A DNA stretch of 64,000 nucleotides from Rhodoferax potami (GTDB lineage: Bacteria > Pseudomonadota > Gammaproteobacteria > Burkholderiales > Burkholderiaceae_C): positions 3,658,001 through 3,722,000 of the forward strand of contig NZ_JAVBIJ010000001.1 of assembly GCF_032193765.1 (NCBI RefSeq), given 5' to 3'. Position numbers and translations under genes: made by a program. Below the pieces are notes generated by a model, which made no database searches, was not told the origin of the DNA, and was given only the letters and a program-made list of their open reading frames with translations. The first letter of the stretch is position 1, and the number at the start of each line of letters is the position of its first letter. Of this stretch, positions 7,059 through 31,825 are shown one piece after another.

Positions 7059-9797
7059 ATGCAAGACAAGTACCAGCACCTCGACGTAGAACAAGCCGCG
7101 CAAGCCCATTGGGCACAGCCTTTGTGGAATGGCGATACCGCCTACCGTGTGACCGAAAACGCCGTGGGCGTGGACGGCAAGCCCAAGAAGAAGTTCTATG
7201 CCTGCTCCATGCTGCCGTACCCCAGCGGCAAGCTGCACATGGGTCACGTGCGCAACTACACCATCAACGACATGCTGGCCCGCTACCTGCGCATGAACGG
7301 CCACAACGTGCTCATGCCCATGGGCTGGGACGCCTTCGGCCTGCCTGCCGAAAACGCGGCGCTCAAGAACAAAGTGCCCCCTGCCAAGTGGACCTACGAG
7401 AACATCGCCTACATGAAAGGCCAGATGCAGGCCATGGGCCTGGCCATCGACTGGAGCCGTGAAGTCGCCACCTGTGACCCGAGCTATTACAAATGGAACC
7501 AATGGCTGTTCCTGAAGATGCTGGAGAAGGGTATTGCCTACCGCAAGACCCAGGTCGTGAACTGGGACCCGGTGGACCAGACCGTGTTGGCCAACGAGCA
7601 GGTGATTGACGGCAAAGGCTGGCGCACCGGTGCGGTGGTGGAGAAGCGCGAGATCCCTGGCTATTACCTGAAGATCACAGACTACGCGCAAGAGCTGCTG
7701 GACCACGTGCAAATGGGCAACGACAAGGCCACGCTCACCGGCTGGCCCGACCGTGTGCGTCTGATGCAGGAAAACTGGATTGGTAAGTCGGAGGGCGTGC
7801 GTTTTGCCTTCACCCACGACATCCAGGATTCGACGGGCGCTTTGATCGGCGATGGGCGCATGTATGTGTTCACCACCCGTGCTGACACGATGATGGGCGT
7901 GACCTTCTGCGCGGTGGCGCCCGAGCACCCCCTCGCTGCGCATGCTGCAGCAACCAACCCCGCGCTGGCCGCCTTCATTGAAGAGTGCAAGACCGGTGGC
8001 ACTACAGAGGCCGAGCTGGCTACCCAAGAGAAAAAAGGCCTGAACACCGGCCTGTTTGTGACCCACCCGCTGACCGGCGCGGCCGTGCCTGTGTGGGTCG
8101 GCAACTATGTGTTGATGGGCTATGGCGATGGCGCCGTGATGGGCGTGCCCGCGCACGACGAACGCGACTTTGCCTTTGCCAAGAAATACGGCATCGAGAT
8201 CAAGCAGGTTGTCTCCGCAGAAGGCGAAACCTTCTCGCTGGAGTCTTGGGCTGATTGGTATGGCGACAAGCAGCGCGCCGTGACGGTGAACTCCGGCAAG
8301 TACGACGGCTTGGCTTACAAAGCAGCGGTCGATGCCGTGGCTGCAGACCTAGCTGCCCTAGGCCTCGGCGAGAAGAAAACCACCTGGCGCCTGCGCGACT
8401 GGGGCGTGAGTCGCCAGCGCTACTGGGGCACGCCGATTCCGATCATCCATTGCGAGGAGCACGGCGCCGTGCCGGTGCCTGAAAAAGACCTGCCCGTGGT
8501 GCTGCCGCAGGACTGCGTGCCCGATGGTTCCGGCAACCCGCTGCACAAGCATGAAGGCTTCCACGCCGGCGTGGTCTGCCCGGTGTGCGGCAAGCCTGCG
8601 CGCCGTGAGACCGACACCATGGACACCTTCGTGGACTCGTCCTGGTACTTCATGCGCTATTGCGATCCAAAGAATCCGGACGCGATGGTGGCCGGCGGGG
8701 CGGACTATTGGATGCCGATGGACCAATACATCGGAGGTATCGAACACGCCATCCTGCACTTGCTGTACGCCCGCTTCTGGACCAAGGTCATGCGCGACCT
8801 GGGTCTGGTGAAGGTGGACGAGCCCTTTACCAAGCTGCTGACCCAGGGCATGGTGCTCAACCACATTTACTCCCGTAAAACAGCCAAGGGTGGCAAAGAG
8901 TACTTCTGGCCCCACGATGTGGAGCATGTGCAGGACGCCGCTGGTAAGGTGGTGGGTGCCAAGCTCATCAACCCGGTGGACAGCGCCGACGGCCTGCTGC
9001 CGGTGGGCACCGCGATTGACTACGAGGGCGTGGGCACCATGTCCAAGTCCAAGAACAACGGTGTGGACCCGCAAGAGCTGATCGCCAAGTACGGCGCAGA
9101 CACCGCCCGCATCTACACCATGTTCACCTCACCCCCCGAGGCCACGCTGGAGTGGAACGACTCGGCGGTGGAGGGTAGCTACCGCTTCCTGCGCCGTGTC
9201 TGGAACTTTGGCTACAAACTGTCTGCTATGGATTCAGTAGCTGCTCGCGCAAGCGTAGCGGGCGCCAAGAGCCTGAATGATGTGGAATTCGGCAAGGAAG
9301 CCAAGGCCCTGCGACTGGAGATGCACACCGTACTCAAGCAGGTGGACTTTGACTACCAGCGCATGCAATACAACACGGTGGTGTCAGGCGCGATGAAGAT
9401 GATCAACGCGCTGGAAGGTTTCAAGGCCCTGGACAGCGCGGGTGCGCAAGTGGCCCTCATCGAAGGCTTCGGCATTCTGTTGCGTTGCCTGTACCCCGCT
9501 ACGCCACACTTGTCCCACGCCCTGTGGTCCGAGCTGGGCTATGCCTCCGCACTTGGTGATCTGCTGGACGCGCCTTGGCCCCAGGTGGATGCAGCGGCTC
9601 TAGTGCAGGACGAGATCGAGCTAGTCCTACAAATCAACGGCAAGTTGCGCGGCGCGGTGCGTGTACCGGCAGGCGCTGACAAGGCCGCCATCGAAGCGGC
9701 AGCGCTGGCCAGCGAGGTGTTTATCGCCCATGCAGCAGGTGCTGCGGCCAAGAAGGTTATCGTGGTGCCCGGTCGCCTGGTCAACATCGTCGTCTGA
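7059..9797 (+). CDS. leuS: Leucyl-tRNA synthetase
   Basis: LeuS charges tRNA-Leu. The 912-residue protein shows the class I HIGH-type motif HMGH (60-63) within [18 protein letters not shown], a large editing domain in the middle ([39 protein letters not shown]), the zinc-type segment [20 protein letters not shown], and the KMSKS-type loop [11 protein letters not shown] near residue 660. After the WNFGYK segment, at about residues 723-739, the coding sequence contains a copy of a dispersed genomic repeat ([13 protein letters not shown]), which appears to sit in a linker of the tRNA-binding domain. The ATG at 7059 is the first in a leader without strong ribosome-site alternatives. Confidence 0.97.
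9225..9273 (+). repeat. Dispersed repeat, coding copy A (inside leuS)
   Basis: The copy begins GCTATGGATTCAGTAGC and continues TGCTCGCGCAAGCG, then GGCGCCAAGAGCC. It is translated in-frame as [10 protein letters not shown] within leuS. It aligns with copies at 20012, 31214 (minus), 44911 (minus), 54579 and 55677. The reading frame through the repeat is the same as in the copies inside the benE-like gene and srkA. Confidence 0.75.
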
Positions 9798-9802
9798 TCA
9801 CC

Positions 9803-10303
9803 ATGCTGCAACGCCGATCGCTTTTTGCGCTGCCTGTGGCTGCCCTGCTGGGAGGCTGCGGCTTCAAGCTGCGCGGCAAACAAAACTACGCCTTTGAGAC
9901 GATTGCGGTCACGCCCGAAAAGGGCGCTGCGGTGGCCTCGGAGCTCAGCCGCTACCTGGGCGACATGGTGCGGCCGGTGGCGCCGCCTGCGGGCGGTGTG
10001 CCTCCGGAAGTGATCGTCGATATATTGGGCGAAACACGCGAAAAGGTGATCGTGGCCCTTAACGCCTCCGGCCAGGTGCGCGAATACCAATTGCGGATCA
10101 AGGTACGTTTTCGCATGCGCACCTCGCAAGGCCGTGACCTGATTGAGCCCACGGACATCTTGCAGGAGCGGGATATCAGCTTCAACGAGTCTGCTGTGCT
10201 GGCCAAAGAGGCGGAAGAGGTGCTGCTCTACCGCGACATGCAGTCCGACATCGTGCAGCAGTTGCTGCGCCGTATCGCGGCTGTGAAAAGCCTGAATCCC
10301 TAA
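9803..10303 (+). CDS. lptE: LPS-assembly lipoprotein LptE
   Basis: LptE plugs the LptD barrel and helps to deliver lipopolysaccharide to the outer membrane surface. The 166-residue protein has a short signal peptide with lipobox LGGC (Cys-19) followed directly by GFKLRG, the typical LptE N terminus, then the LptE core (KVIVALNASGQVREYQL, DILQERDISFNESAVLAKEAEE). It starts five bases after leuS, as in most proteobacteria. The usual next gene, holA, is displaced by 2.7 kb because three arginine-catabolism genes lie between. Confidence 0.94.
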   Translation: MLQRRSLFALPVAALLGGCGFKLRGKQNYAFETIAVTPEKGAAVASELSRYLGDMVRPVAPPAGGVPPEVIVDILGETREKVIVALNASGQVREYQLRIKVRFRMRTSQGRDLIEPTDILQERDISFNESAVLAKEAEEVLLYRDMQSDIVQQLLRRIAAVKSLNP

Positions 10304-10310
10304 GGTGGCC

Positions 10311-10784
10311 ATGGACCGGGTCGATCACACCCTGCTGGAGTTGCTGCAGCGCGACGGGCGCATGAGCGCGCAAGCCTTGTCAGAGGTGGTCAACCTGTCG
10401 GCACGAGCAACCTTGAACCGGATCCACAAGCTGGAGGACGAAGGGCACATCGAGGGCTACCGCGCCTTGCTGGCACGCCAGTCCATCGGTGAGCATGTGT
10501 CGGTGTTTGCGGAAATTGCCCTCAAGGACCAGCGCCAGGCGACGGTACAGCGCTTCGAGCAGGCCATGGTCGCTTGCCCGGAGGTGATTGCCTGCTACTT
10601 GGTGAGTGGCCGCTACGACTACTTGGTCCGCCTGGCTTGTCGCGACCTGAACCACTACCGTGAATTGACCAACACCTGGATTGACGACGTCGGCTTGGGT
10701 GTCGACAAGGTTGTGACCAGCACCGAGCTGCAAACTGTGAAAGAGTTTGCTGGCTTCCCTCTAATGGTCCGCACGACCCGCTGA
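10311..10784 (+). CDS. Lrp/AsnC family transcriptional regulator
   Basis: The 157-residue protein has the family layout: an N-terminal AsnC-type helix-turn-helix (LLELLQRDGRMSAQALSEVV, then SARATLNRIHKLEDEGHIEGY) and a C-terminal RAM ligand-binding domain (VIACYLVSGRYDYLVRLACRD). The ATG at 10311 is preferred over the GTG at 10305 because AAGGTGG lies just upstream of it. It begins seven bases after lptE and is followed, after 178 bases with a strong palindrome, by ornithine cyclodeaminase and arginase, which it most likely regulates in response to an amino acid such as arginine or ornithine. That regulatory link is inferred from position only. Confidence 0.93.
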   Translation: MDRVDHTLLELLQRDGRMSAQALSEVVNLSARATLNRIHKLEDEGHIEGYRALLARQSIGEHVSVFAEIALKDQRQATVQRFEQAMVACPEVIACYLVSGRYDYLVRLACRDLNHYRELTNTWIDDVGLGVDKVVTSTELQTVKEFAGFPLMVRTTR

Positions 10785-10913
10785 TAGCGGTCAATTCCGT
10801 TTCGGAAGTGGCATTCAGGGTCGGCAGCGGTTTGCGCGCTTTGCCAGCCCGACTTCATCGCTTAACTCCTTGGTGGCAGGCCTAGACTAGGTGCAGCTGC
10901 CGGCGTTGCGGTA

Positions 10914-10930
10914 GATGCGGAATCCGCATC
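10914..10930. promoter_or_regulatory. 17-bp palindrome upstream of ornithine cyclodeaminase (candidate Lrp operator)
   Basis: GATGCGGAATCCGCATC is a perfect palindrome with 8-base arms around one central base, 32 bases before the ornithine cyclodeaminase start. The 178-base region 10785-10962 between the Lrp gene and its neighbour otherwise holds no gene. Its position and symmetry fit an operator for the adjacent Lrp-type regulator, though this is an inference. Confidence 0.5.
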
Positions 10931-10962
10931 CCCTCGCGGCACTTTGCCCTGAGGAGAAGCCC

Positions 10963-12015
10963 ATGACCCGCTATATCGACGTCCATGACATGCAAGCCCT
11001 GGTGCGCCAGCACGGTCTGGCCCCCATGATGTCCGAGATGGCCCAGACCATCCGTGAAGACTTTTTGCGTTGGGAGGACTTCGACAAATCCCCCCGCACT
11101 GCCAACCACAGCATCAACGGTGTCATCGAGCTGATGCCGGTGTCCGACAACGCGCTGTACGCGTTCAAATACGTGAACGGCCACCCCAAGAACCCGCTGC
11201 AAGGCCTGTCCACCGTGATGGCCTTTGGCGTGCTGGCCGATGTGGCCACTGGTTACCCCGAGTTGCTCAGCGAACTCACCATTACCACCGCCTTGCGCAC
11301 GGCTGCGACCTCGGCTATGGCGGCCAAAGTGCTGGCCCGCCCGGAGAGCAAAACCATGGCGCTGATCGGCAATGGCTCGCAAAGCGAATTCCAGGCCATT
11401 GCGTTCATGACGCAGCTGGGGATCACCACGCTTCGCGTGTTCGATGTGGACGCCCGCGCTACCGACAAGCTGGTGGCGAACTTGCGCCCGTACACCGAGT
11501 CTGGCGCGCTGACCATCGTGCGCTGTGCCTCGACCCGTGAAGCGGTGCGCGGCGCCGACATAGTGACCACGGTAACCGCCGACAAAACCAATGCCACCAT
11601 CCTGACGGCGGACATGATCGAACCCGGCATGCACCTCAATGCCGTGGGCGGCGACTGCCCGGGCAAGACCGAGCTAGAGGCCGCCATCCTGAATCAGGCC
11701 AAAGTTTTCGTGGAGTTTGAACCCCAGACGCGCATCGAGGGCGAGCTGCAGCAGATGCCTGCGGACTTTGTGACCCACCCACTCTGGCAGGTACTGGCGG
11801 GCCACGCTGCGGGCCGGGACCACGCCGAACAAGTGACCTTGTTTGACTCGGTGGGTTTTGCCCTGGAGGATTTGTCGGCCCTGCGCTATGTTCATGCACT
11901 CTCGCAGAAACTGGGCGTAGGCAGTACCGTGCAACTGGTGCCCGATCTCGCGGACCCCAAAGACCTGTTCGCCTGTGCCACCGCCGTTCCTGCGCCATTG
12001 CGCAAAGCCGCATGA
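10963..12015 (+). CDS. Ornithine cyclodeaminase
   Basis: The enzyme converts L-ornithine to L-proline and ammonia using tightly bound NAD+. The 350-residue protein belongs to the OCD/mu-crystallin family: KYVNGHPKNP (69-78) binds substrate, GNGSQSEFQA (137-146) is the nucleotide-binding turn, and VGGDCPGKTEL (228-238) carries the catalytic aspartate and is characteristic of true ornithine cyclodeaminases. The ATG at 10963 has GAGGAG eight bases upstream. Its stop overlaps the arginase start by four bases, so the pair forms a translationally coupled arginine to ornithine to proline route. Confidence 0.94.
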   Translation: MTRYIDVHDMQALVRQHGLAPMMSEMAQTIREDFLRWEDFDKSPRTANHSINGVIELMPVSDNALYAFKYVNGHPKNPLQGLSTVMAFGVLADVATGYPELLSELTITTALRTAATSAMAAKVLARPESKTMALIGNGSQSEFQAIAFMTQLGITTLRVFDVDARATDKLVANLRPYTESGALTIVRCASTREAVRGADIVTTVTADKTNATILTADMIEPGMHLNAVGGDCPGKTELEAAILNQAKVFVEFEPQTRIEGELQQMPADFVTHPLWQVLAGHAAGRDHAEQVTLFDSVGFALEDLSALRYVHALSQKLGVGSTVQLVPDLADPKDLFACATAVPAPLRKAA

Positions 12016-12920
12016 GCCAGCCGGTGTTACACATCGTCGGCGCAGCGGTCGGCGAGGGCGCCAGCGATGGCGGATGCAAATGGGGCTCCAACGCCCTGAA
12101 AGAGCATGGTCTGCAGCGCGCTTTGGCAGCGACCGGACGCACCGTCACCTGGGGCGAGACTGTGAGTGCCCAGCCTATGCTGGCTAGCAGCCGCTTGGGT
12201 GCAATCGAAGGGTTCTCGGAGCACCTGGCCCACACGGTGGCGCAGGTGCTGCACCATGGGCAGCAACCCCTGGTGGTGGGCGGTGACCATTCGTGTGCAG
12301 TGGGCACCTGGAGTGCCGTGGCAGAACATCTGCGCCCCCAAGGCAGAGTGGGGCTGGTCTGGATCGACGCACACCTGGATGCCCACACCCCCGACACCTC
12401 CGATACCCAGGCCCCCCATGGCATGCCATTGGCGGCGCTGTTGGGTTACGGTTCGGTGGGGATGACGGATGTATTTGGCTGGCGCGGCAAGTTGTTGCCT
12501 TCGCAGGTCGCCATCATCGGTGCCCGCAGTTATGAGCCGGCCGAGCAGGCCTTGCTCAGCCAATTGGGCGTGCGCGTGATGTACATGCCCGAGGTTTTGG
12601 AGCGCGGGTTTGCAGCCTGCTTTGCCGAGGCTCGGGCTATTGCGTCTACCGGTACCGCGGGATGGGGCATCAGCTTCGATCTGGACGGCTTGGACCCGCG
12701 GGACGCCCCCGGCACTGGTACCCCGGTGGAGCAGGGCATTCGCCTCGCAGATGCGCTTCAGGCCCTCGACGGCTGCAGCCACGATCCGCAGTTTGTGGCC
12801 ATGGAGCTCACCGAGTACAACCCCTTGCGCGACTTTGGGGGGCAGACCGCCCGCGCGGCGACAGCGCTGTTGTGCACCGTACTGGCGCCGTCGGCTGCCA
12901 CGCTGGAGCTGGCCGCCTAA
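12012..12920 (+). CDS. rocF: Arginase
   Basis: Arginase hydrolyses arginine to ornithine and urea with a two-manganese centre. The 302-residue ureohydrolase has all metal ligands in their motifs: GGDHS (90-94), DAHLDAH (119-125) and SFDLDGLDP (221-229); the first ligand residues of SISFDxDxxDP are slightly varied to GISFDLDGLDP, as in many arginases. A close relative such as agmatinase is less likely because the neighbour is ornithine cyclodeaminase. It is coupled to that gene by an ATGA overlap. No urease genes are present in the window. holA begins 53 bases after the stop. Confidence 0.92.
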   Translation: MSQPVLHIVGAAVGEGASDGGCKWGSNALKEHGLQRALAATGRTVTWGETVSAQPMLASSRLGAIEGFSEHLAHTVAQVLHHGQQPLVVGGDHSCAVGTWSAVAEHLRPQGRVGLVWIDAHLDAHTPDTSDTQAPHGMPLAALLGYGSVGMTDVFGWRGKLLPSQVAIIGARSYEPAEQALLSQLGVRVMYMPEVLERGFAACFAEARAIASTGTAGWGISFDLDGLDPRDAPGTGTPVEQGIRLADALQALDGCSHDPQFVAMELTEYNPLRDFGGQTARAATALLCTVLAPSAATLELAA

Positions 12921-12973
12921 GCCCAGCGCCGCGGCTGTGCAAGGGCCGGTGTGCCAAGTAAACTCACCACCCT

Positions 12974-14071
12974 ATGCAAGTCGCGGCCAACCAACTCCAG
13001 AACCACCTGCAACGCGGGCTCAAAAGCCTGTACACCTTGCACGGTGACGAGCCGCTGCTGCAGCAAGAGGCGCTGGATGCGATCCGCGCAGTGGCCCGCA
13101 CCCAGGGCTACACCGAGCGAACCTCGCACACCGTGGCCGGTGCCCACTTCGATTGGAGCGAGGTGCTTGCCGCAGGCGGCTCGCTCAGCCTGTTTGCAGA
13201 CAAGCAGATTGTGGAAATCCGCATCCCTAGCGGCAAGCCGGGCAAAGACGGCAGCGTTGCGCTGCAGCAGTTGGCCGAAGCCGCGCAAGGCAACGACTCC
13301 ACCCTCACCATCGTCATGCTGCCGCGCTTGGACAAGATGACCAAGTCCGGCGCCTGGTTCTCCGCGCTGGAGAGTTATGGCATCTCGCTTCAGGTCGATC
13401 CGATTGAGCGCAACGCCTTGCCGCAGTGGATTGCCCAGCGCCTGGGCGCCCAAGGGCAGCGAGTGGCCGCCGGTGAAGAAGGGCAGCGCACCCTGCAGTT
13501 TTTTGCCGACCGTGTGGAGGGCAACCTGCTGGCTGCTCATCAGGAAATTCAAAAACTCGGCCTGCTGTATCCGGCGGATACCGGTGACGGCGTGTTGACG
13601 CTTGCACAGGTCGAAAGCGCCGTGCTGAATGTGGCGCGCTACGACGTGTTCAAGCTCTCCGAAGCGGTGCTCGCCGGCCAGGCAGCGCGGGTGCAGCGCA
13701 TGCTCGATGGTCTGCAGGCCGAAGGCGAGGCGGAAGTGCTGGTGCACTACACTTTGGCCGAAGATATTCGCTCCTTGAAGCGGGTCAAAGACGCCATGGG
13801 CCAGGGGCGCCCCTTGCCGATGGCCCTGCGCGAAAACCGCATATGGGGCGTCAAAGAGCGCCTGTTCGAGCGGGTGCTGCCCAAGCTGTCTGAGCGCACA
13901 TTGGCAGAGCTCTTGCAGTCCGCCCATGTGGTGGACGGCATCGTCAAAGGCCTGAAGCAGCCCGACTGGCCAGCCAGTGGCTGGCAATCCTTGCACCGGC
14001 TGGCGCTGCAGGTTTGCGCCTTATGCGGCGGTCAAGCCCATCCGGCATCTGCCGGCGGGTTGCGTCGCTGA
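12974..14071 (+). CDS. holA: DNA polymerase III subunit delta
   Basis: HolA is the clamp-loader subunit that opens the beta sliding clamp. The 365-residue protein has the expected pattern: an N-terminal LYTLHGDEPLLQQEALDAIR segment (clamp binding and AAA+-like domain 1), a GISLQVDPIERNALPQWIAQRL linker, FFADRVEGNLLAAHQEIQKL, and the C-terminal collar domain (LAEDIRSLKRVKDAM onward). In related bacteria it directly follows lptE. Here the arginase module separates them. The ATG at 12974 fits the family start. Confidence 0.93.
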   Translation: MQVAANQLQNHLQRGLKSLYTLHGDEPLLQQEALDAIRAVARTQGYTERTSHTVAGAHFDWSEVLAAGGSLSLFADKQIVEIRIPSGKPGKDGSVALQQLAEAAQGNDSTLTIVMLPRLDKMTKSGAWFSALESYGISLQVDPIERNALPQWIAQRLGAQGQRVAAGEEGQRTLQFFADRVEGNLLAAHQEIQKLGLLYPADTGDGVLTLAQVESAVLNVARYDVFKLSEAVLAGQAARVQRMLDGLQAEGEAEVLVHYTLAEDIRSLKRVKDAMGQGRPLPMALRENRIWGVKERLFERVLPKLSERTLAELLQSAHVVDGIVKGLKQPDWPASGWQSLHRLALQVCALCGGQAHPASAGGLRR

Positions 14072-14091
14072 GGGACCGGCAGGAAACACCT

Positions 14092-14652: not shown

Positions 14653-14696
14653 GCGGGGCTGGATCGGGTCTTTCTGTGTTCTGCGAAAATCAGCCC

Positions 14697-15977
14697 ATGA
14701 ACGCCACCAACACCACCGAATACACCCTGGCCCTTGGTTCACAAGCAAAAGTGGCATCCGCCCTCATGGCGCGTGCGCCATCAGCTATGAAAAACGTAGC
14801 GTTGCGTGCCTTGGCCCGCCTGTTGCGCGAGAACACTGCAGCCTTGCAGGTGGACAATGCCAAGGATATTGAGCGGGCTGTGGCCAACGGCCTGTCTGCT
14901 CCGATGGTGGATCGCCTCAAGCTCACCCCCAAAGTGCTCGAAACCTGTGCCGAAGGCTGTGAGCAGCTGGCTGCCATGGCCGATGTGATCGGCGAAATCA
15001 TCGGCATGAAGCAGCAGCCCAGCGGTATCCGCGTGGGCCAGATGCGGGTGCCGATCGGCGTGTTCGGCATGATTTTCGAGAGCCGCCCGAATGTGACCAT
15101 CGAGGCTGCCAGCCTCTCAATCAAGAGCGGCAACGCGTGCATCTTGCGGGGGGGCTCGGAGGCGATTGACTCCAACAAAGCGCTGGCCAAGCTGGTGCAA
15201 CAGGCCCTGACTGAAGCCGGCTTGCCTGCCAATGCCGTGCAACTGGTGCAAACCACCGACCGTGAGGCAGTGGGCCAGTTGATCGCGATGCCGCAGTTTG
15301 TAGATGTGATCATCCCCCGCGGTGGCAAGGGGCTGATTGAGCGCATCAGCCGCGATGCCAAGGTGCCTGTCATCAAGCACCTGGACGGTAATTGCCACAC
15401 CTATGTGGACGACCCTTGCGATATCGCCATGGCGGTCAAGGTGGCCGACAACGCCAAAACCAACAAATACAGCCCCTGCAATGCGACCGAAGGCCTGCTG
15501 GTGGCGCGCGGTGTAGCCGCCCAGTTTTTGCCGCTGATCGGCAAAATCTATGCGGACAAAGGTGTCGAGATGCGCTGCGATGCCGAAGGGCGAGCCATCC
15601 TCGAAGGTGTAGCCGGTGCCAAAGTTACAGACGCCACCGAGCAAGACTGGTATGAAGAGTACTTGGCCCCCATCGTCAGCGTGAAGTTGGTGGACGGCGT
15701 GGACGAAGCGATTGCCCACATCAACCGGTACAGCAGCCACCACACCGACGCCATCCTGACCATCAACCACGTGCACGCCCAGCGGTTCTTGCGCGAAGTC
15801 GACTCAGCGAGCGTGATGGTGAACGCCAGTACCCGGTTTGCCGATGGCTTTGAGTACGGCCTGGGGGCAGAGATTGGTATCAGTACCGACAAGTTCCACG
15901 CCCGGGGCCCGGTGGGCATCGAGGGCCTGACCTCGCTGAAATACGTGGTGCTGGGCGAGGGCGAAGTGCGAGCCTGA
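14697..15977 (+). CDS. proA: Gamma-glutamyl phosphate reductase
   Basis: ProA reduces gamma-glutamyl phosphate to glutamate semialdehyde in proline biosynthesis. The 426-residue protein is a full-length aldehyde-dehydrogenase-fold enzyme with [19 protein letters not shown] (nucleotide site), [16 protein letters not shown], the catalytic cysteine in [13 protein letters not shown], and the ending [19 protein letters not shown]. The ATG at 14697 is preferred over one seven codons upstream. Its product and that of the ornithine cyclodeaminase 3 kb upstream both feed proline, and proC lies at 59 kb in this window. A short stretch at residues 30-38 (AMKNVALRA) may derive from the dispersed repeat. 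Confidence 0.96.
14784..14810 (+). repeat. Possible truncated copy of the dispersed repeat (inside proA)
   Basis: GCTATGAAAAACGTAGC followed by GTTGCGTGCC matches the left part of the dispersed repeat, closest to the copy at 54579 (about 21 of 27 bases). It is read in the same frame as the other coding copies, giving AMKNVALRA. The right half of the repeat is absent and the N-terminal helix of ProA naturally contains similar residues, so chance is a real alternative. Confidence 0.35.
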
Positions 15978-19423: not shown

Positions 19424-19474
19424 GCAATGGAGCCCCGCCGCTCCGCTGTTGCTCAGGTCGTTGACAATCTGCCC

Positions 19475-20692
19475 ATGCATTTTTTCAAAGACCTGAGTCT
19501 CTCGGCCTTCACAGCCGGTTTTGTGGCGGTATTGGTGGGCTTTACCAGCTCGGTGGCGATCGTGTTCCAAGCGGCGCTGGCGTTGGGCGCCACGCCGGAC
19601 ATGGTGGCCTCATGGATGTGGGCCTTGGGCATCGGCATGGGACTGTGCACCTTGTTGCCCTCCCTCTGGCTCAAGAAGCCGGTGATGGTGGCCTGGAGCA
19701 CCCCGGGTGCGGCGGTACTCGCGACCGCTGCGACCGCCGGCGGATTCACCATGGCGGACGGCGTAGGCGCTTTCATCCTGTGTGCTCTCTTGATCACGGT
19801 GGCAGGCGCGACCGGTTGGTTTGAGCGGGTGATGAACAAGATCCCTTTGTCGCTGGCTTCTGCATTGCTGGCCGGGGTGTTGGCGCGGTTTGGTTTGCAA
19901 GGCTTTGCCGCTGCCCAAACTGCCCTGCCTCTGGTGGGCTTGATGTTGGTGACTTACCTGGCGGGCAAGCGCTGGGCTCCACGCTATGCCGTGCCGCTTA
20001 CCCTGTTGATTGCTATTGTTTTTGTAGCTGCTCGCGCTGAATTCATAAGCGCGGACATCCATTTTGGCTTCACTGTGCCGGTGTTTGTGGCGCCGGCGTT
20101 TTCGCTCGCGGCCTTCATCAGCATGTCGCTGCCGCTTTTCGTGGTGACCATGGCGTCGCAAAATCTGCCGGGGGTGGCGGCGATTCAGGCGGCGGGCTTT
20201 GCAGACCGCCGAGCACAAGGGGGCGATGCCGGTATCCCTGTGTCCAAGGTCATTACCCTCACGGGTGTGATGACGCTCGTTCTGGCTCCATTTGGTGCAT
20301 TCGCACTGAATCTCAGCGCCATTACGGCTGCCATTTGCATGGGGCCGGAGGCACATGCCCGACCCGAACGGCGCTACACCGCTGCTGCGTCTTGCGGGGC
20401 TATTTATCTGGTGATCGGCCTCTTCGGTGCCGCCATTACCGGCGTGCTCACGGCCTTTCCTAAAGAGCTGGTGGCGGCCATTGCCGGGTTGGCGCTGCTG
20501 GGCACTATCGGTGGCGCCTTGCACACGGCGGTGCAAGACGAGCGTAACCGCGAGGCGGCACTGATTACTTTTCTGGTCACCCTGAGCGGGGTGGTAATAG
20601 CCGGCGTCGGCTCCGCCTTTTGGGGTGTGGTGGCCGGCGTGTTGGCGCTTTTGGTGCAACATACCGGTCGCGTGCCCCCAAGCAAGGCTTGA
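19475..20692 (+). CDS. BenE family benzoate/H+ symporter-like transporter
   Basis: The 405-residue integral membrane protein matches the BenE/YdcO family: FTAGFVAVLVGFTSSVAIVF (first helix), KKPVMVAWSTPGAAVLATA, LPLFVVTMASQNLPGVAAIQ and TGVMTLVLAPFGAFALNLSA. The family is known for benzoate uptake, but the substrate is uncertain. The ATG at 19475 (MHFFKDLSLSAF) matches the family N terminus; an ATG at 19427, three bases after the kup stop, would add 16 residues. Residues about 180-197 (AIVFVAARAEFISADIHFG region) are encoded by a copy of the dispersed repeat. gshB starts 53 bases after the stop. Confidence 0.88.
   Translation: MHFFKDLSLSAFTAGFVAVLVGFTSSVAIVFQAALALGATPDMVASWMWALGIGMGLCTLLPSLWLKKPVMVAWSTPGAAVLATAATAGGFTMADGVGAFILCALLITVAGATGWFERVMNKIPLSLASALLAGVLARFGLQGFAAAQTALPLVGLMLVTYLAGKRWAPRYAVPLTLLIAIVFVAARAEFISADIHFGFTVPVFVAPAFSLAAFISMSLPLFVVTMASQNLPGVAAIQAAGFADRRAQGGDAGIPVSKVITLTGVMTLVLAPFGAFALNLSAITAAICMGPEAHARPERRYTAAASCGAIYLVIGLFGAAITGVLTAFPKELVAAIAGLALLGTIGGALHTAVQDERNREAALITFLVTLSGVVIAGVGSAFWGVVAGVLALLVQHTGRVPPSKA
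20012..20066 (+). repeat. Dispersed repeat, coding copy B (inside benE-like gene)
   Basis: The copy reads GCTATTGTTTTTGTAGC then TGCTCGCGCTGAATTC, then ATAAGCGCGGACATCC. It is translated as AIVFVAARAEFISAD, in the same repeat frame as copies A (leuS) and C (srkA). It overlaps the end of a predicted membrane helix and the following loop. Confidence 0.75.
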
Positions 20693-22948: not shown

Positions 22949-23002
22949 GAGCGACGCGGGTGCGGCCTCGAGGCCGTTCACCCATAGCAGGGCGTGTGAT
23001 CG

Positions 23003-23893: not shown

Positions 23894-23921
23894 GGAAACA
23901 GTTTACTCCGCAGGATGGGGT

Positions 23922-24113: not shown

Positions 24114-24183
24114 GGTGTCCTTTCAAAGGGGATAAGGCGCGCAGATTAGACTGCGGGATTCTTATTTTCCTCCGACTCGTCCT

Positions 24184-25692: not shown

Positions 25693-25697
25693 ACGCC

Positions 25698-26516
25698 ATG
25701 TTGTCCACCCCCACAAGCCCTCACGCTCTGGCCAGCCCGGTTGCCCTCCGCAGCTGGTGGTGGCCTTTGGTCATTTTTGTACTCGGCACGCCCTTGTGGT
25801 TGCAGACCTGGGAGCCCGCCCTGTTTGTGGCGATCAACCAGTGGTGTGCGCCTCTGGCCGCAGAGTTCTGGACCGGGCTCTCTTTGTTGGGCAATGGCTG
25901 GGGTTTGCTGGCGGTCACCGCACCTTTGTTGGTGCTGGCCCCGCGCTTGATGTTGGCCTGGCTGTGCGCCGCGCCATTTGCGGTCTTGTTTGCCCGCACC
26001 GGCAAGTTCCTGATTGAGAGCCCGCGCCCGGCCGCAGTGGTCGACAACGCGCAGATGCGGGTGGTCGGCGAGTTGCTGCACAACGTGTCCATGCCCTCCG
26101 GGCACACGCTCACCGCTTTCGCGGTGGCCTCTGGCATTTACTACGCACTGACCCCGGTGCAGCGCCGGCAGTTCGGCTGGGTGCTGATGGTGCTGGCGGC
26201 CGGCGCAGGTTTGTCGCGCATTGCGGTGGGTGCCCATTGGCCCGGGGATGTGGTCGTGGGGACCAGCTTGGGCCTGTTGTCCGGTTTGTTGGGGCACCAG
26301 GTGTGGATACGCCTGTCCGAGCGGCAGTTCGCGCCCAACGCCAAGGGCATGCAGGTGGCCGCCGTCTTGGTGGCGCTCTCGGTCTACCACCTTGTGACGG
26401 AAGAGTTGGATTTCGCTGAAAACCATGTGCACCAACAGGTGCTGACGGTGGTGGCCGTGCTCAGCTTGTTGGGGTATTTGCGATTGGTGTGGCGGACCAT
26501 GTTTCAAGCCAAATAG
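25698..26516 (+). CDS. PAP2 superfamily membrane phosphatase
   Basis: This 272-residue membrane protein carries the three phosphatase motifs of the PAP2/undecaprenyl-pyrophosphate phosphatase family: KFLIESPRPA (KxxxxxxRP), MPSGHT (PSGH) and SRIAVGAHWPGDVVVG (SRxxxxxHxxxD). Six helices are expected. It likely removes a phosphate from a lipid carrier or phospholipid. Five bases separate it from the ArnT-like gene, so both are probably expressed together in envelope modification. The stop is followed four bases later by a dispersed repeat copy. Confidence 0.9.
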   Translation: MLSTPTSPHALASPVALRSWWWPLVIFVLGTPLWLQTWEPALFVAINQWCAPLAAEFWTGLSLLGNGWGLLAVTAPLLVLAPRLMLAWLCAAPFAVLFARTGKFLIESPRPAAVVDNAQMRVVGELLHNVSMPSGHTLTAFAVASGIYYALTPVQRRQFGWVLMVLAAGAGLSRIAVGAHWPGDVVVGTSLGLLSGLLGHQVWIRLSERQFAPNAKGMQVAAVLVALSVYHLVTEELDFAENHVHQQVLTVVAVLSLLGYLRLVWRTMFQAK

Positions 26517-26520
26517 CCTT

Positions 26521-26564
26521 CTGGCCCTCTAATTGATTGCGCTGGTAGCTATTAATTTGATAGC
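26521..26564 (-). repeat. Dispersed repeat, non-coding copy G (after PAP2 gene)
   Basis: On the minus strand it reads GCTATCAAATTAATAGC, TACCAGCGCAATC, then AATTAGAGGGCC. The left palindrome GCTAT...ATAGC is intact; the right half is a variant of the family (shorter centre, ending AGAGGGCC). It starts four bases after the PAP2 stop codon, in opposite orientation to that gene. Confidence 0.6.
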
Positions 26565-26633
26565 ATTCTGAGGCCCGGAATACCCCGAAAGCTTGCAGGG
26601 ATTAGTTTGTCTCTGCCATCATCCACACACCTT

Positions 26634-26768
26634 TTAGGGGAGTAGCATTCCCGGCGCGCAGGTGCCGGGGTTGCATGTTTCGTCAGTACGTCGCGGGTGG
26701 TTTCATTGCCCCGGCCGGAACATGCAGAGGCGCCACATGGCGCTCTCCCGCAAGACCTACAGGGAATG
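26634..26768 (+). promoter_or_regulatory. yybP-ykoY manganese riboswitch upstream of the TerC-family gene
   Basis: The leader holds the two signature segments of this class: GGGGAGTAGC at 26637-26646 and GCAAGACC at 26750-26757, separated by hairpins including GGCGCCACATGGCGC and an ACATGC internal-loop element near 26720. yybP-ykoY RNAs bind Mn2+ and switch on exporters such as E. coli alx and mntP. The regulated start codon at 26794 lies about 25 bases after the last conserved segment, so control of translation initiation is the likely mode. Confidence 0.88.
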
Positions 26769-26793
26769 TTTCAACCATTTCGAGGTCTTGCAT

Positions 26794-27753
26794 ATGCAAA
26801 CAATCGCACCGCTGTGGCTATGGGCCACCTTCATCGGCATCGTACTGGTGTCACTCTTCGTCGACTTCGTCGTCCTCAAAAAGCAGGGCGCCCATGACAT
26901 CGGCGTCAAAGAGGCGCTTAACTGGTCCCTGATCTGGATTGCCTTGAGCTTCTTGTTCAACGGCTTGTTCTGGTGGGCGGTCAAAGACACCACCGGCTCG
27001 ACCGAGATCGCCAACACCAAGTCGCTGGAGTTCCTGACCGGCTACCTCATCGAGAAATCGCTGGCGGTGGACAACATCTTTGTGTTCCTGCTGATCTTCA
27101 CCTACTTCGCGGTGCCTACGCACTACCAGAAGCGGGTGCTGATGATCGGCATCATCGGTGCCATCGTGTTGCGCACCATCATGATTCTGGTGGGCGGCTG
27201 GTTGTTGGCTGAGTTCCACTGGATCTTGTATGTGTTCGGCGCTTTCCTGATCCTCACCGGCGTGAAGATGTGGTGGGCTGCAGGCCAGGAACCTAGCCTG
27301 GATGACAACCCCGCACTGAAGCTGCTGCGCAAGATCCTGCCCGTGAGCAAGAACTACGACGGCGAAAAATTCTGGACCGTAGAAAACGGCAAGAAGATCG
27401 CAACGCCTTTGTTCATGGTGATCTGCTTGGTGGCCCTGACCGACGTGATTTTTGCGGTGGACTCGATTCCTGCGATCTTCGCGATCACCAGCGACCCCTT
27501 CATTGTCTTGACCAGCAACGTGTTTGCGATTCTGGGTCTGCGTGCGATGTACTTCCTGCTGGCAGCTGTCGCTAACAAGTTCCACCTGTTGAACTACGGC
27601 TTGGCGGTGATCCTGGTGTTCATCGGTACCAAGATGTGCTTGATCGATATCTACAAGATTCCGGTGGGCGTGTCCTTAGGCGTGGTGATCGGTATCCTGG
27701 CTGCCACCATGTGGTTGAGCGTACGCACCAGCAAGAACGAAGACCACGCATGA
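26794..27753 (+). CDS. TerC/Alx family membrane protein, probable manganese exporter
   Basis: The 319-residue protein starts MQTIAPLWLWATFIGIVL and matches the Alx branch of the TerC family: IEKSLAVDNIFVFLLIFTYF and LVALTDVIFAVDSIPAIFAIT hold the two Asp-containing metal sites, each in a membrane helix; YQKRVLMIGIIGAIVLRTI lies between. Alx exports Mn2+ and responds to alkaline pH in E. coli. The ATG at 26794 is chosen because the longer frame from 26662 would be translated through the riboswitch. Control by the upstream yybP-ykoY element supports the manganese role. The stop overlaps the ExoD-like start (ATGA). Confidence 0.92.
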   Translation: MQTIAPLWLWATFIGIVLVSLFVDFVVLKKQGAHDIGVKEALNWSLIWIALSFLFNGLFWWAVKDTTGSTEIANTKSLEFLTGYLIEKSLAVDNIFVFLLIFTYFAVPTHYQKRVLMIGIIGAIVLRTIMILVGGWLLAEFHWILYVFGAFLILTGVKMWWAAGQEPSLDDNPALKLLRKILPVSKNYDGEKFWTVENGKKIATPLFMVICLVALTDVIFAVDSIPAIFAITSDPFIVLTSNVFAILGLRAMYFLLAAVANKFHLLNYGLAVILVFIGTKMCLIDIYKIPVGVSLGVVIGILAATMWLSVRTSKNEDHA

Positions 27754-28367
27754 GCGTTCACCACACGCAGGCCGAACGGCTGCGGGCTGCAGCCACCGCG
27801 CTGCAGGACCAGCCGCTGAGCCTGCAGCAACTGTTCCGGCTGCATGGCCGGGCAGGGCCGGGGGCCTTGTTGGTGGTGCTCGCAGTCCCCTGCCTCTTGC
27901 CCGTGCCCGGCGCGGGCATGTTGCTTTCCATGGGGATGGTGATGGTGGCTTGGATGATCTGGCGCTATTACCCGCGTCTGGTCATGCCCCGCAAGGTGGG
28001 CCGCTTTCAGTTGTCGCCGTCCATGGCGCGCCGTGCACTCAATACCTTGGCGTGGCTCTATGAAAAAGCCTCCCGGGTCATGCGGACCCGGCAGCGTTGG
28101 TGGCTGCAGCCCGGTCACCGCGTCTGGCTTGCGCCCTTTGTGGCAGCCATGGCGATGATCATTTTCTTGCCGATTCCTTTCGGCAATGTCGTGCCGGCAG
28201 CGGCCCTGTTGCTCATTGGCTTGGGGCTGGTGTTTGAAGACGGCTTGGCCATGCTCTCAGGTGTCGTACTGGGCGTGGTTTTGTTGGTAGTGCTGGCCGC
28301 TCTGGCCGGAGGGGCTGCCCACTGGGTGCCTGAACTTTGGGCCGCTTGGCCTCAGCGCTCGCAGTAA
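27750..28367 (+). CDS. ExoD family membrane protein
   Basis: The 205-residue protein matches the ExoD family: LQQLFRLHGRAGPGALLVVL, PCLLPVPGAGMLLSMGMVM, and a C-terminal FLPIPFGNVVPAAALLLIGLG repeat-like helix pair. ExoD was named from a Rhizobium mutant affected in exopolysaccharide and alkali sensitivity; its biochemical role is unknown. It overlaps the TerC/Alx stop by four bases and so is translationally coupled and placed under the same manganese riboswitch, suggesting a joint function in metal or alkaline stress. Confidence 0.88.
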   Translation: MSVHHTQAERLRAAATALQDQPLSLQQLFRLHGRAGPGALLVVLAVPCLLPVPGAGMLLSMGMVMVAWMIWRYYPRLVMPRKVGRFQLSPSMARRALNTLAWLYEKASRVMRTRQRWWLQPGHRVWLAPFVAAMAMIIFLPIPFGNVVPAAALLLIGLGLVFEDGLAMLSGVVLGVVLLVVLAALAGGAAHWVPELWAAWPQRSQ

Positions 28368-28381
28368 AACGCTGCGGAATT

Positions 28382-29200
28382 TCAATGCCCTGCCAGCCGC
28401 AGCGCCAATGCGCTGAGGGCCTGGTAGGCGTCGCCACTAGGCGTATCCCATGCGTTCACCACCGCGGCCTGCCGCTCAATGGCGGCCACATCGCCACGCG
28501 CAGCAGGGCCTGTGAGCGCACCGGCCGGACCAAGCCGGGTGATGTTGTCCACCGCATTGCGTAACAAGGTCGCGCGCAGGTGCGGCAGCAAGTGGGCGGG
28601 TACACCGGTGCGGGTCCAGGCAGCTTCTGCTACCGACTGGATCACCGGCAGGAAGTTAGTCGCAAACACTGCCGCGGCGTGATAGAGCACTTTGTCCGCG
28701 CTGGCCACACCGAACGTCTGCGCGCCAATCGCATCGAATGCCGAGCGCAAAGTGTCGCAAGCGGAGGTGTCACCTTCCAGCGCACACGCCGTGCCCGCGA
28801 ACTGCTGCACCGCCACCCCGACATCTGCAAAACTCAAGATGCAATGGGCACTGGCAGTGCGCCAACCCAGGTCGGCCAAGGGCTGCAAGCTGCCGGCGTT
28901 CTGGGCGCCGCTGCAATGAAAGACGATGGGGGCAGCGGTTCCGGATGGTTGCGTGGCGGCGAGCGCGCTGGCGACTTCGGCGATTCGCGCATCCTGCACC
29001 GCCACCATCCACACATCGGCCGGGCGCATGGCCTGCAGGGTGGCTACCGCCGTGCCCGAGCCCATGGCGGAGCACGCGACTTGTGCACTCGCCAAGCTGC
29101 TGGTCAACACATCTTGAATCTCGAACACGCCATGCCGTGCCCACAAGGTGGCCAATGTGCGGCCCACACGGCCGGCACCTATCAGGTTCAAAGTTGTCAC
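28382..29200 (-). CDS. Rossmann-like and DUF2520 domain-containing protein
   Basis: The 272-residue protein resembles short-chain NADP-dependent reductases of the ketopantoate/ProC fold: an N-terminal LNLIGAGRVGRTLATLW nucleotide-binding loop, a DVWMVAVQDARIAEVASAL segment, and a helical C-terminal DUF2520 domain (SADKVLYHAAAVFATNFLPV, GPAARGDVAAIERQ). No specific substrate is known for the family. It is convergent with the ExoD gene (14 bases between stops) and divergent from the epimerase gene at 29245 with 44 bases between starts. Confidence 0.85.
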   Translation of the reverse strand: MTTLNLIGAGRVGRTLATLWARHGVFEIQDVLTSSLASAQVACSAMGSGTAVATLQAMRPADVWMVAVQDARIAEVASALAATQPSGTAAPIVFHCSGAQNAGSLQPLADLGWRTASAHCILSFADVGVAVQQFAGTACALEGDTSACDTLRSAFDAIGAQTFGVASADKVLYHAAAVFATNFLPVIQSVAEAAWTRTGVPAHLLPHLRATLLRNAVDNITRLGPAGALTGPAARGDVAAIERQAAVVNAWDTPSGDAYQALSALALRLAGH

Positions 29201-29244
29201 GCGTGCTTCACTCCGGGAACGGTGGGCGCCGCTACCATGGCGCC

Positions 29245-30099
29245 ATGAAAAAAATTCTGGTTACAGGCGGCACCGGGGCCGTCGGCAAATACATTGTGGA
29301 CGATCTGGTGCAGCACGGGTACACCGTGGGGGTGCTCGATCTGGCCGCCCCTGCTCGCAATGATGTGGCGCACCATGCCGTTGACGTATTGCAGCTCGAT
29401 GCGGTGTTGCAGGCCATGGCCAGTTATGACGCGGTCATGCACGTGGCGGGCATTCCGCACCCGCTCAACGACCCGGCCAAGCGGGTGTTTGATGTGAATG
29501 TGAACGGCACCTTCAATGTGCTCGAAGCCGCTGCCCAGCATGGCATTGCCAAGGTAGTGTTCACCTCCAGCGAATCGACCATGGGCTTTGCCTTTGCGGC
29601 GCACCGGCTGGCGCCCCTCTGTATCCCGGTGGACGAAGCCCATCCAGCCCGCCCGCAGGACCCGTACGGCCTGAGCAAAGTGGTGAGCGAGCAGATCTGC
29701 AAAACCTATTCCGACCGCTTTGGGCTGCGCACCGTGTGCCTGCGCATGCCCTGGGTCTGGCTGCCTGACGATGCCCAGCGCCCGTTTTACCGCTCGCTGG
29801 TGGCGGAGTACCCCAACTGGTACAAAAACTTGTGGACCTTTGTGGATGCCCGCGATGTGGCGACTGCGCACCGCCTGGCGCTCGAAGTCGAGCTGGAGCA
29901 GCAGCACGAAGCCTTTTTCATCACCGGCCCGCACAACTGGACCGGCCGCGACGGCCGCGCCTTGATGGCCGAGTTCTGGCCCGAGGTGACGCAGTTCGCG
30001 GCTGACTTTACCGGCGCCGAGCCCTTGATTTCTCATGCCAAGGCCGCCCGCCTGCTGGGCTATGCGCCACGGTATGGCGTGACCGACGTGCTTGCTTAG
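29245..30099 (+). CDS. NAD-dependent epimerase/dehydratase (extended SDR)
   Basis: The 284-residue protein is an extended short-chain dehydrogenase: KILVTGGTGAVGKYI at the N terminus binds NAD(P), HVAGIPHP and VNVNGTFNVLEAA are family blocks, FTSSESTMGF holds the catalytic Ser, and YGLSKVVSEQI has the YxxxK pair. A sugar nucleotide or related compound is the likely substrate. The ATG at 29245 gives the standard N terminus. The stop overlaps the stop of the convergent PAP2 gene by four bases. Confidence 0.85.
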   Translation: MKKILVTGGTGAVGKYIVDDLVQHGYTVGVLDLAAPARNDVAHHAVDVLQLDAVLQAMASYDAVMHVAGIPHPLNDPAKRVFDVNVNGTFNVLEAAAQHGIAKVVFTSSESTMGFAFAAHRLAPLCIPVDEAHPARPQDPYGLSKVVSEQICKTYSDRFGLRTVCLRMPWVWLPDDAQRPFYRSLVAEYPNWYKNLWTFVDARDVATAHRLALEVELEQQHEAFFITGPHNWTGRDGRALMAEFWPEVTQFAADFTGAEPLISHAKAARLLGYAPRYGVTDVLA

Positions 30100-30776
30100 T
30101 TAGCGCCGGCCTGCACAGTCGGGACAGGGGTAGCAGGTGCTGGTGCCGATTGATGCAACTGGTGCCGGCGAAACGGTTGGACTTTGCCCGAGAGCCAGAG
30201 CGCAATCCGGACCTCCATCGCATGGGTCGGCAGGTACGTCGCAGTGCTGGTGTTCAAGGCCAGCACCAGCAGGCAAGGCGCCCACCGGGAAGCCGGGTGC
30301 CGCAGAGGCACCTGCCCCAAACGCCGCACCACCGGCACACTGACCGCCAGCCCGAGCAGCCAGGCGGCTACGACCTCACTCACACTGTGCGCGCCGACCA
30401 CGACCCGCGAAACGCCCACCAGCAAGGCCAGCGCGGCACCCAGCGGAGCGCCGAGATCGCGCCCCCACCGGCCGGGCAAACCCCGTAGCAACAAGGGCAA
30501 TATGGCCGCGGCCAGCAGGCCATGGCCGCTCACGCCGGTGAAGTCGATCGCGGCGATGCCGATGCCCCAGCCGTAAAACAGGCACTTGCTGGTCACGGTG
30601 AGTGCCACCGCAGCCGTCATGGCCATCACATAGCGGCGGGCAGCGGCCTGTGCGCCACTGCGCCACAGCCCGAATGCCACCAACACAAACGCCGGCAACA
30701 GCAGGCTAGACGAGCCGAAATGGGTCACGGTCCACCAGACCGGCGCAATCGGGGTGTTGCTCAAGGCCTCGCTCAT
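30096..30776 (-). CDS. PAP2 superfamily phosphatase-like membrane protein
   Basis: This 226-residue membrane protein has a PAP2-like C-terminal catalytic region with GVSGHGLLAAAILPLLLRG (in place of PSGH) and SRVVVGAHSVSEVVAAWLLG (SRxxxGxHxxxxV), but the first KxxxxxxRP motif is not visible and the final Asp of motif 3 is replaced by Glu. It may therefore act on an unusual substrate or be weakly active. The ATG at 30776 overlaps the srkA stop. It is the last gene of a minus-strand group with two kinases and a metallophosphoesterase. Confidence 0.78.
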   Translation of the reverse strand: MSEALSNTPIAPVWWTVTHFGSSSLLLPAFVLVAFGLWRSGAQAAARRYVMAMTAAVALTVTSKCLFYGWGIGIAAIDFTGVSGHGLLAAAILPLLLRGLPGRWGRDLGAPLGAALALLVGVSRVVVGAHSVSEVVAAWLLGLAVSVPVVRRLGQVPLRHPASRWAPCLLVLALNTSTATYLPTHAMEVRIALWLSGKVQPFRRHQLHQSAPAPATPVPTVQAGAN

Positions 30777-31825
30777 ACGATCAGGGGGTTGTCGCTCATG
30801 GCCTCGATCTGGTCCTCCAGCATCTGGATCTGGCCTTTCCAGTAATCGCTGCTGCCAAACCACGGGAAATTCACCGGAAAAATCGGGTCGCTCCAGCGCC
30901 GCGCCAGCCAGGCGCCGTAGTGAATCAGGCGCAGCGTGCGCAGGGGCTCAATCAGGGCCAGCTCCATGCGATCGAACTCGCGGAATTGCTCGTAGCCATC
31001 CACCAGCATGCCGAGCTGCCGGGTTTGCTGCTGCCGGTCGCCGCTGAGCAGCATCCACAGGTCTTGCACTGCCGGGCCGGTGCGCGCGTCGTCCAAGTCC
31101 ACAAAATGCGGGCCGGGACCGGCGCTGGCCGCGGCATCGGTCGGCGTCCAGAGAATGTTGCCGGGGTGGCAGTCGCCATGCAGGCGCAGCTGGCGTATAC
31201 CGCTCGAATTGGTCTTGTTTTGGCCTGTAGCGCCCGCCATATCTGCGCGAGTAGCTATCAAATCAATAGCTTCCTGGCAGCGCTTGCTCCAGAGGGTTTG
31301 CACATCCAGTGGCACGCAGTCGTGCGCGAGCAGCCACTGCATCGGCTCCACCGCAAAGGTCTGGACATCCAGTGCAGGGCGCTGCACAAAGGGGCGGCGC
31401 GCGCCCACGGTGTGGATACGCGCCAGAAAGCGGCCGATCCACTCCAGCACTTCACCATCGTCAAGTTCAGGTGGGCGGCCACCACGGCGCGGGCTCACGC
31501 TGAAGCTGAAATCCTGAAACCGGTGCAGGGTCTGGCCGTTCAGTACCAAAGGGCCGACGGCCGGAATCTCGGCGGCCATCAGCTCGGCGGCAAAGTCGTG
31601 CTCTTCCTGAATTTGCGCGTCGCTCCAACGCTCGGGGCGGTAGAACTTGGCTACCACCGGCGCGCCGTCTTCGAGCTGGACCTGGTAAACCCGGTTTTCG
31701 TACGACGAGAGGGCGGTGAGCCGCCCGTCGCCGCGCAAGCCCACGCTCTCCAGCGCGTCGAGCACCACGTCCGGGGTCAGGGTTTCAAAGGGATGGGCGG
31801 CGCCGAGCGCGGTGGGGGAGTTCAT
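30773..31825 (-). CDS. srkA: SrkA/RdoA-like stress response kinase
   Basis: SrkA (YihE/RdoA) is a Ser/Thr protein kinase of the APH/choline-kinase fold that protects stressed cells. The 350-residue protein contains PVVAKFYRPERWSDAQIQEE (Lys near 60), the catalytic loop LHGDCHPGN (215-223) and the metal-binding VDLDDARTGPAVQDLW (242 on). E. coli SrkA has 328 residues. Here residues about 186-203 (AIDLIATRADMAGATGQN) just before the catalytic loop are encoded by the dispersed repeat, which explains part of the extra length. The stop overlaps the PAP2 start by four bases, and the gene is preceded by the kinase-Usp gene 53 bases upstream. Confidence 0.9.
   Translation of the reverse strand: MNSPTALGAAHPFETLTPDVVLDALESVGLRGDGRLTALSSYENRVYQVQLEDGAPVVAKFYRPERWSDAQIQEEHDFAAELMAAEIPAVGPLVLNGQTLHRFQDFSFSVSPRRGGRPPELDDGEVLEWIGRFLARIHTVGARRPFVQRPALDVQTFAVEPMQWLLAHDCVPLDVQTLWSKRCQEAIDLIATRADMAGATGQNKTNSSGIRQLRLHGDCHPGNILWTPTDAAASAGPGPHFVDLDDARTGPAVQDLWMLLSGDRQQQTRQLGMLVDGYEQFREFDRMELALIEPLRTLRLIHYGAWLARRWSDPIFPVNFPWFGSSDYWKGQIQMLEDQIEAMSDNPLIV
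31214..31270 (-). repeat. Dispersed repeat, coding copy C (inside srkA)
   Basis: Read on the minus strand: GCTATTGATTTGATAGC, TACTCGCGCAGATATG, GCGGGCGCTACAGGCC, AAAACAAG. It is translated as AIDLIATRADMAGATGQN in the same repeat frame as copies A and B. It lies in the segment just upstream of the kinase catalytic loop. The match with the non-coding copy at 55677 is the closest. Confidence 0.8.

Follow-up and report, generated by a model that had tools for sequence, protein, structure and literature searches.

A high-copy, REP-like palindromic repeat of Rhodoferax and related genera, with apparent conservation of its DNA letters inside protein-coding genes

Introduction

Repetitive extragenic palindromic (REP) sequences, 20–40 bp long (PMC3733652), and REPINs are described together with REP-associated tyrosine transposases (RAYTs). 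Hundreds of short palindromic copies lie mainly at gene 3′ ends and in the gaps between convergent or co-oriented genes, a GTAG (or CGTC) tetranucleotide is terminal and unpaired, and the RAYT is single-copy and vertically inherited (PMC3733652, PMC8049555). It is an open question in the field what maintains such REP–RAYT populations in bacteria. The Rickettsia palindromic elements (RPEs), 105–146 bp in length, are translated in frame within ordinary conserved proteins, with 19 in-gene cases cited (PMC2229807). BRE, a dispersed repeat of the Betaproteobacteria including Rhodoferax and Polaromonas, also has some copies wholly inside coding sequences; it is ~90 bp long, with a mean GC content of 69% in Bordetella, is often tandem and reaches at most 29 copies per genome (PMC3110155). 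Here we analyze a 64-kb stretch of the Rhodoferax potami genome (the window), in which an initial annotation had noticed a short repeat inside leuS, a benE-like gene and srkA. These three sites appear to be members of a high-copy, REP-like dispersed element of about 65 bp, found in Rhodoferax and many related genera. We lean, with modest confidence, towards the reading that the letters of this element are kept inside genes and that it is recognized by a sequence-specific DNA-binding factor, which would keep the copies in step. The likeliest factor would be the single-copy RAYT-type tyrosine transposase of the genome, a putative binder and mobilizer that would also have spread the copies.

The element resembles REP/REPIN populations in being a high-copy palindromic repeat with hundreds of short copies, mostly extragenic and near gene 3′ ends, in convergent and co-oriented gaps, with a GTAG-like tetranucleotide and a single-copy RAYT-type gene in the genome. 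It differs from the REP sequences described in those accounts in being longer and two-part (a palindrome plus an arm pair), in having about one third of its copies in genes, and in its tetranucleotide, which is mostly ATAG and lies within the palindrome. In view of the place of this tetranucleotide and of the tentative transposase link, we call it REP-like and do not claim membership in REP. The suggested likeness to the RPEs holds, as this is a dispersed palindromic element translated in frame inside ordinary proteins, far above chance. Compared with the RPEs as described in PMC2229807, it is shorter (~65 bp), uses several frames on both strands and bears an apparent DNA-level constraint, and 58 of the 172 copies sampled lie in genes. 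BRE, going by its description as ~90 bp, GC-rich and tandem, is set apart from an element of ~65 bp with A/T-rich columns. Finally, an unnamed potential novel motif, ATAGCT(N)22CAAAAG, was reported from Polaromonas naphthalenivorans in 125 copies, of which 101 were intergenic and 18 lay within genes, with 34 placed between convergent genes, and Rhodoferax ferrireducens T118 had the most motif pairs, 140 (PMC5217627). Its core letters and spacing fit columns 12–17 and 40–45 of the element, while columns 41 and 43 deviate from the consensus here; judged by core and spacing, the element was probably already glimpsed there. Reading frames, constraint, arms and transposase all lie outside that account of the motif, and our literature search found no paper naming the element.

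Element structure and copy number

The element consists of a palindrome of 17 bp (GCTAY-N7-RTAGC) that has an A-tract at its core, followed by TGCT and two GC-rich arms. In this genome, the right edge of the palindrome reads RTAG or GGAG, followed by CTGCT and the arm pair GCGC...GCGC. The column profile spans about −2 to +62 relative to GCTAT, and no terminal inverted repeat of the type seen in miniature inverted-repeat transposable elements is obvious in it. A genome-wide search with the pattern GCTAT-N8-TAGCTGCTCGCGC gave 321 matches at ≤2 mismatches, compared to 2 for the reversed pattern, so that the consensus is indeed found well above chance. In the window, 8 matches at ≤3 mismatches compare with 0.05 expected; the plus-strand copies at 9225 and 20012 match exactly, and the minus-strand copy that starts at 31270 departs from the pattern at a single base. 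The three copies originally placed at 9225, 20012 and 31214 (minus) are thus real, but their spacer is 8 bases rather than about 10, as a 10-base spacer gives 0 matches.

An element model was built from 113 pattern-selected copies and applied, at a cut-off of E≤1e-3, to 1.264 Mb made up of the window and 60 systematically chosen stretches of 20 kb each, where it identified 172 copies. Since its seeds were drawn from the same sample, the fair control is the reversed-sequence decoy, and the best decoy (E 0.31) rules out a chance origin. Extrapolation to the 4.0-Mb genome, assuming even density, gives ~540 copies. No strand bias was obvious by eye, without statistics, over 16 chromosomal bins. 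Positions 12–15, inside the palindrome and not terminal, read ATAG in 85 copies, GTAG in 35 and GGAG in 29 (RTAG or GGAG in 149 of 171). In the arms, position 23 is C in 170/171 copies and position 39 is G in 159/171.

Codon conservation inside genes

Of the eight copies that the model finds in the window, four are within LeuS, ProA, BenE and SrkA; the other four, which had not been noted initially, are located at gene 3′ ends or close to them. The copies in leuS (9222..9289, plus strand; gene 7059–9797, plus; score 41.8, E 7e-11), the benE-like gene (20009..20071, plus; gene 19427–20692, plus; score 36.3, E 4e-9) and srkA (31219..31270, minus; gene ~30773–31825, minus; score 45.5, E 5e-12) are all read in sense frame 0, in agreement with the initial annotation. 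The proA copy, which had been placed at 14784 in the same frame, lies instead on the minus strand at 14738..14802 (gene ~14697–15977, plus; score 31.9, E 9e-8) and is read in an antisense frame. Each of these four copies was found at the same place in all five relatives compared over 80-kb syntenic stretches (G217, G299, G331, G346 and G355), and by this comparison they are old.

Codon identity was compared among seven carrier genomes, counting, given the same amino acid, those codons whose third base falls on a conserved element column. Identity was 342/352 at these columns, compared to 20637/30022 in the rest of the same genes, although the genomes are related and the comparisons hence not independent, which tempers the contrast. 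The individual values were 126/126 against 12254/16590 for LeuS, 105/115 against 4088/7351 for BenE, and 111/111 against 4295/6081 for SrkA. Combs of the same shape laid elsewhere were equally conserved at 23 of 858 positions in LeuS, 10 of 381 in BenE and none of 315 in SrkA. The codons kept include rare ones, such as GCT (12% of Ala), GTA (7% of Val) and ATA (3% of Ile). Codons at variable columns within the element were identical in 28/42 comparisons in LeuS and 41/63 in SrkA; in BenE, all 38/38 were identical, and the missing contrast between conserved and variable columns in this gene is a point against our main reading. By these counts, the element letters stay in LeuS, BenE and SrkA while other codons drift, and the DNA letters, rather than the encoded protein, may be what evolution preserves in the in-gene copies.

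Such codon constraint would also be expected if the element were bound by a host protein other than a transposase, either nucleoid-associated or a regulator, and if selection for this binding kept or even shaped its copies in place, including those in genes. The internal variation of the element is compatible with this alternative. The strongest column couplings join neighboring A/T positions, with TpA avoided as in A-tracts (columns 8–9: TT 85, AA 47, AT 36, TA 3). Paired columns vary independently, with no covariation within this genome (columns 4/12: TA 54, TG 47, CA 40, CG 24; columns 24/38: GC 107, GG 54), and independent variation of palindrome halves recalls a dimer operator. Arm letters that differ among genera and in the sister species G287, and copies in BenE and ProA that sit in protein segments of unchanged length, point in the same direction. 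Yet insertion-like length differences do exist (at another ProA site and at 44907, see below), and a regulator would not usually have hundreds of sites of ~65 bp. No candidate for such a protein turned up, although no search was made for one. We consider a host binder of this kind rather unlikely.

Comparison with the sister species

The sister species G287 carries the element with different arm letters. With a search pattern that fixed the neighboring bases and left positions 23 and 39 free, the listed G287 copies have A at position 23 in 21/21 and T at position 39 in 20/21. Fifteen distinct G287 copies have flanks that align to the sampled DNA of this genome, and at ten of these sites a model copy is present here in the same orientation, ≤30 bp from the projected place. 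Position 23 is C here and A in G287 at all ten shared sites, and position 39 is G here in 9/10 and T in G287 in 8/10. Called genes of this genome contain six of the ten: those in LeuS, BenE and SrkA, and copies in L043, L047 and L052. Two of the ten (L161:1153 and L163:7763) are 26–27 bp off the projected place, beside 24–33 unaligned flank bases. The remaining five sites comprise a palindrome in L327 with its tail on the opposite side, a degenerate copy in L163 below the cut-off, and three without a copy.

The change of letters extends to the proteins. In LeuS, BenE and SrkA, the codon concerned is CGC in this genome and, for each gene, in the six further carriers included in the comparison. 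It is CAA in G287, resulting in Arg versus Gln three times over. Complementarity of positions 23 and 39, pooled over seven carriers of other arms including G287, was 62/121 compared to 33.6 in shuffles; it was not significant within single genomes, and in several genera the complementarity is partial. A changed recognizer together with selection, or gene conversion, could either of them have re-lettered the shared sites, whereas drift alone can hardly account for the switch. We put forward, tentatively, that the element may be a genome-wide DNA signal held by selection in coding genes, where it would set codons and even amino acids; a change of recognizer would then re-letter the copies in step (C23–G39 to A23–T39) and produce the same Arg-to-Gln substitution in unrelated proteins. 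Both the apparent DNA-level constraint in genes and the site-by-site re-lettering in a sister species are likely to be novel. The family is high-copy and widespread in environmental bacteria, its shared sites can be compared one by one between species, and in genes such as leuS the codons are perhaps set by a signal other than protein function. If so, the co-evolution of repeat and recognizer becomes directly testable, and motifs common to unrelated proteins can be DNA-driven, which is a warning for their interpretation.

Placement and reading frames

Genes were called with a codon-usage caller made for this analysis (82% coding) rather than taken from the genome annotation. Of 172 copies, 62 are intergenic and 58 are inside genes, while 44 overlap a gene 3′ end and 8 a 5′ end. 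The element thus clusters at gene 3′ ends and downstream of them, with about one third of its copies in genes. The intergenic copies include 39 between co-oriented, 16 between convergent and 4 between divergent gene pairs.

This arrangement is what might be expected if the element acted as RNA, as a terminator or a transcript-stabilizing hairpin, and two of seven folded sequences are indeed more stable than shuffles at z near −2.6. The other five fold no better than shuffles, however, and the stem columns 4/12 and 24/38 vary independently, as described above. At 3′ ends, 20 copies have the same orientation as the gene and 24 are antisense, and Rfam gave no match in the window. A role as RNA is very improbable.

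The 58 in-gene copies use all six frames (24 antisense-1, 18 sense-0, 9 sense-2, 4 antisense-2, 2 sense-1 and 1 antisense-0), contrary to the suggestion of one common frame for the element. In the 62 intergenic copies, the frames that are open number 38 antisense-1, 38 sense-0, 5 sense-2, 19 antisense-2, 9 sense-1 and 1 antisense-0, from which 20 antisense-1, 20 sense-0, 10 antisense-2, 4.7 sense-1, 2.6 sense-2 and 0.5 antisense-0 in-gene copies would be expected. Uniform frame use is rejected, and the residual after allowing for the open-frame share (p=0.004) is an excess of sense-2 and a shortfall of antisense-2. Since the open-frame share explains most of the frame use, the shared frame is more a by-product of stop codons than a design; special design was discarded as the source of the bias in favor of stop avoidance.

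Frame use that largely tracks open frames would suit plain selfish REP-like relics, in which old insertions were tolerated in open frames and are neutral, and the seeming constraint reflects slow drift or gene conversion. The depletion in genes (58/172 copies although 82% of the sequence is coding) and the decayed versions of the element in low-copy genomes such as G344 agree with such relics. They are harder to reconcile with the rare codons kept at element columns and with the letter switch at 10/10 shared sites in G287, six of them in genes, which is difficult to obtain by drift, although gene conversion could still produce it. Neutral relics of this kind seem to us quite unlikely.

Insertion or unchanged length

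The initial annotation anticipated clean presence or absence of 15–20 residues at the in-gene sites. Some sites do have a copy in certain relatives and none in others. At another site in ProA, G331 and G346 have 68 bp with a minus-strand copy where this genome, G299, G217 and G355 have 26 bp, a clean, in-frame difference of 42 bp or 14 codons. At its copy and immediately beyond it, SrkA exceeds YihE (1zyl) by 12 residues, which fits an insertion. LeuS agrees in part. It is 6 residues longer than 6q89 at the copy, and 16/30 same-genus loci have a detectable copy; among the 14 loci without one, the loop length is kept in 9, differs by 2 residues in 3, and is shorter by 4 residues in one and by 7 in another. 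LeuS proteins of the same genus also have further in-frame insertions, which vary in length, around residue 388, and their matches break near 790.

Two sites lack such a length gain, and both weigh against plain insertion as the origin of all in-gene copies. ProA site 1 has no gap relative to 4ghk or 1o20. BenE has none in the 46 aligned of 119 other listed homologs, all ≥78% identical, and no PDB relative was found at E≤1. The BenE copy of G287 is full-length, with a protein 7 residues longer; the tail of the copy is shorter here. The RPE-like length gain is therefore seen at ProA site 2 and SrkA and is absent from BenE and ProA site 1, and clean insertion holds only in part. The earlier observation of the repeat is thus real and was understated, whereas its insertion and same-frame readings were partly right. 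Upstream of proA (window ~14690), G355 has ~566 bp extra compared to this genome.

The RAYT-type transposase

This genome encodes a single-copy tyrosine transposase of RAYT type, which belongs to the Y1 type and has an HFH motif. The gene (L068 14433–15180; G000:C1:2402490-2403179) is fast-evolving, with 40–98% identity among full-length matches of the genus. A relative is present in 58/61 same-genus genomes, in 30/30 chosen carrier genera and in nearly all family genomes searched. GGGGTCAGA-type boxes, which resemble the TIRYT class with its GGGGWSAS motifs as described in PMC3733652, flank the gene, and a box GATRTGTCCC...TCTGACCCC lies 3′ of the stop codon in most loci. The element, in antisense orientation, is often fused to this 3′ box in carriers. 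A strict fusion pattern is present in 14/15 same-genus loci of high-copy genomes (≥20 copies) and in 0/15 of low-copy ones (≤6 copies), and in 18/30 carrier versus 1/30 non-carrier genera. A looser pattern gives 15/30, 20/30 and 2/30 for same-genus loci, carriers and non-carriers, respectively (strict form: 14, 18 and 1).

This association leads us to suspect that the transposase is the partner of the element, but several observations weigh against it. A relative of the transposase is also present in 30/30 non-carriers, these having been picked from genomes with a Y1_Tnp match. No element is found at the RAYT in G287, despite its repeats, in G349, or in 12/30 carrier genera. The downstream context of the RAYT appears orthologous across genera, so that the fusion cases are not independent. 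The LeuS copy tracks genome copy number as well as the RAYT fusion does, and the element is common at gene 3′ ends in any case (117 of 1109 genes). For the last three reasons, the fusion is suggestive only. Co-occurrence with RAYTs was set aside as proof of partnership, weakened as it is by the RAYTs of non-carriers, by G287 and by non-independence.

Distribution in the family

At ≤1 mismatch, 94 of 299 family genomes match the pattern, with counts of up to 382, some of the 94 having only 1–2 matches, like the reversed control. An arm-neutral, exact core pattern is found in 85/299 genomes, representing 48 of the 141 genera of the family. Phage records gave no match and plasmid records gave 5. 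Two genomes of genus g32 (G031 and G239) have the same palindrome and TGCT with a first arm AGGC; both are without a match to a pattern requiring GC at both inner arm ends.

Other copies in the window

The remaining four window copies are associated with gene 3′ ends. A minus-strand copy at 26502..26566 (E 6e-12) spans a gene 3′ end at 26516 and is found in 5/5 relatives despite diverged adjoining flanks. Another, at 44907..44970 (minus; E 2.5e-11), lies just past the gene ending at 44899; it is present in G217 and G355 and absent from G299, and its site was unplaced in G331 and G346. The plus-strand copy at 55674..55738 (E 1e-13), just past the gene ending at 55663, is present in G299, G331 and G355 and missing from G217, where ~720 bp of other sequence is found instead, with the site unplaced in G346. 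The fourth, at 54577..54627 (plus; E 2e-9), overlaps a stop codon, that of a gene whose end is at 54585, and is present in 5/5 relatives. At 54623–54714, two 25-nt arms with 92% complementarity enclose a 42-bp segment, which is reverse-complemented in G217, G331 and G355 compared to this genome and G299, and which represents an inverted, perhaps invertible, hairpin segment.

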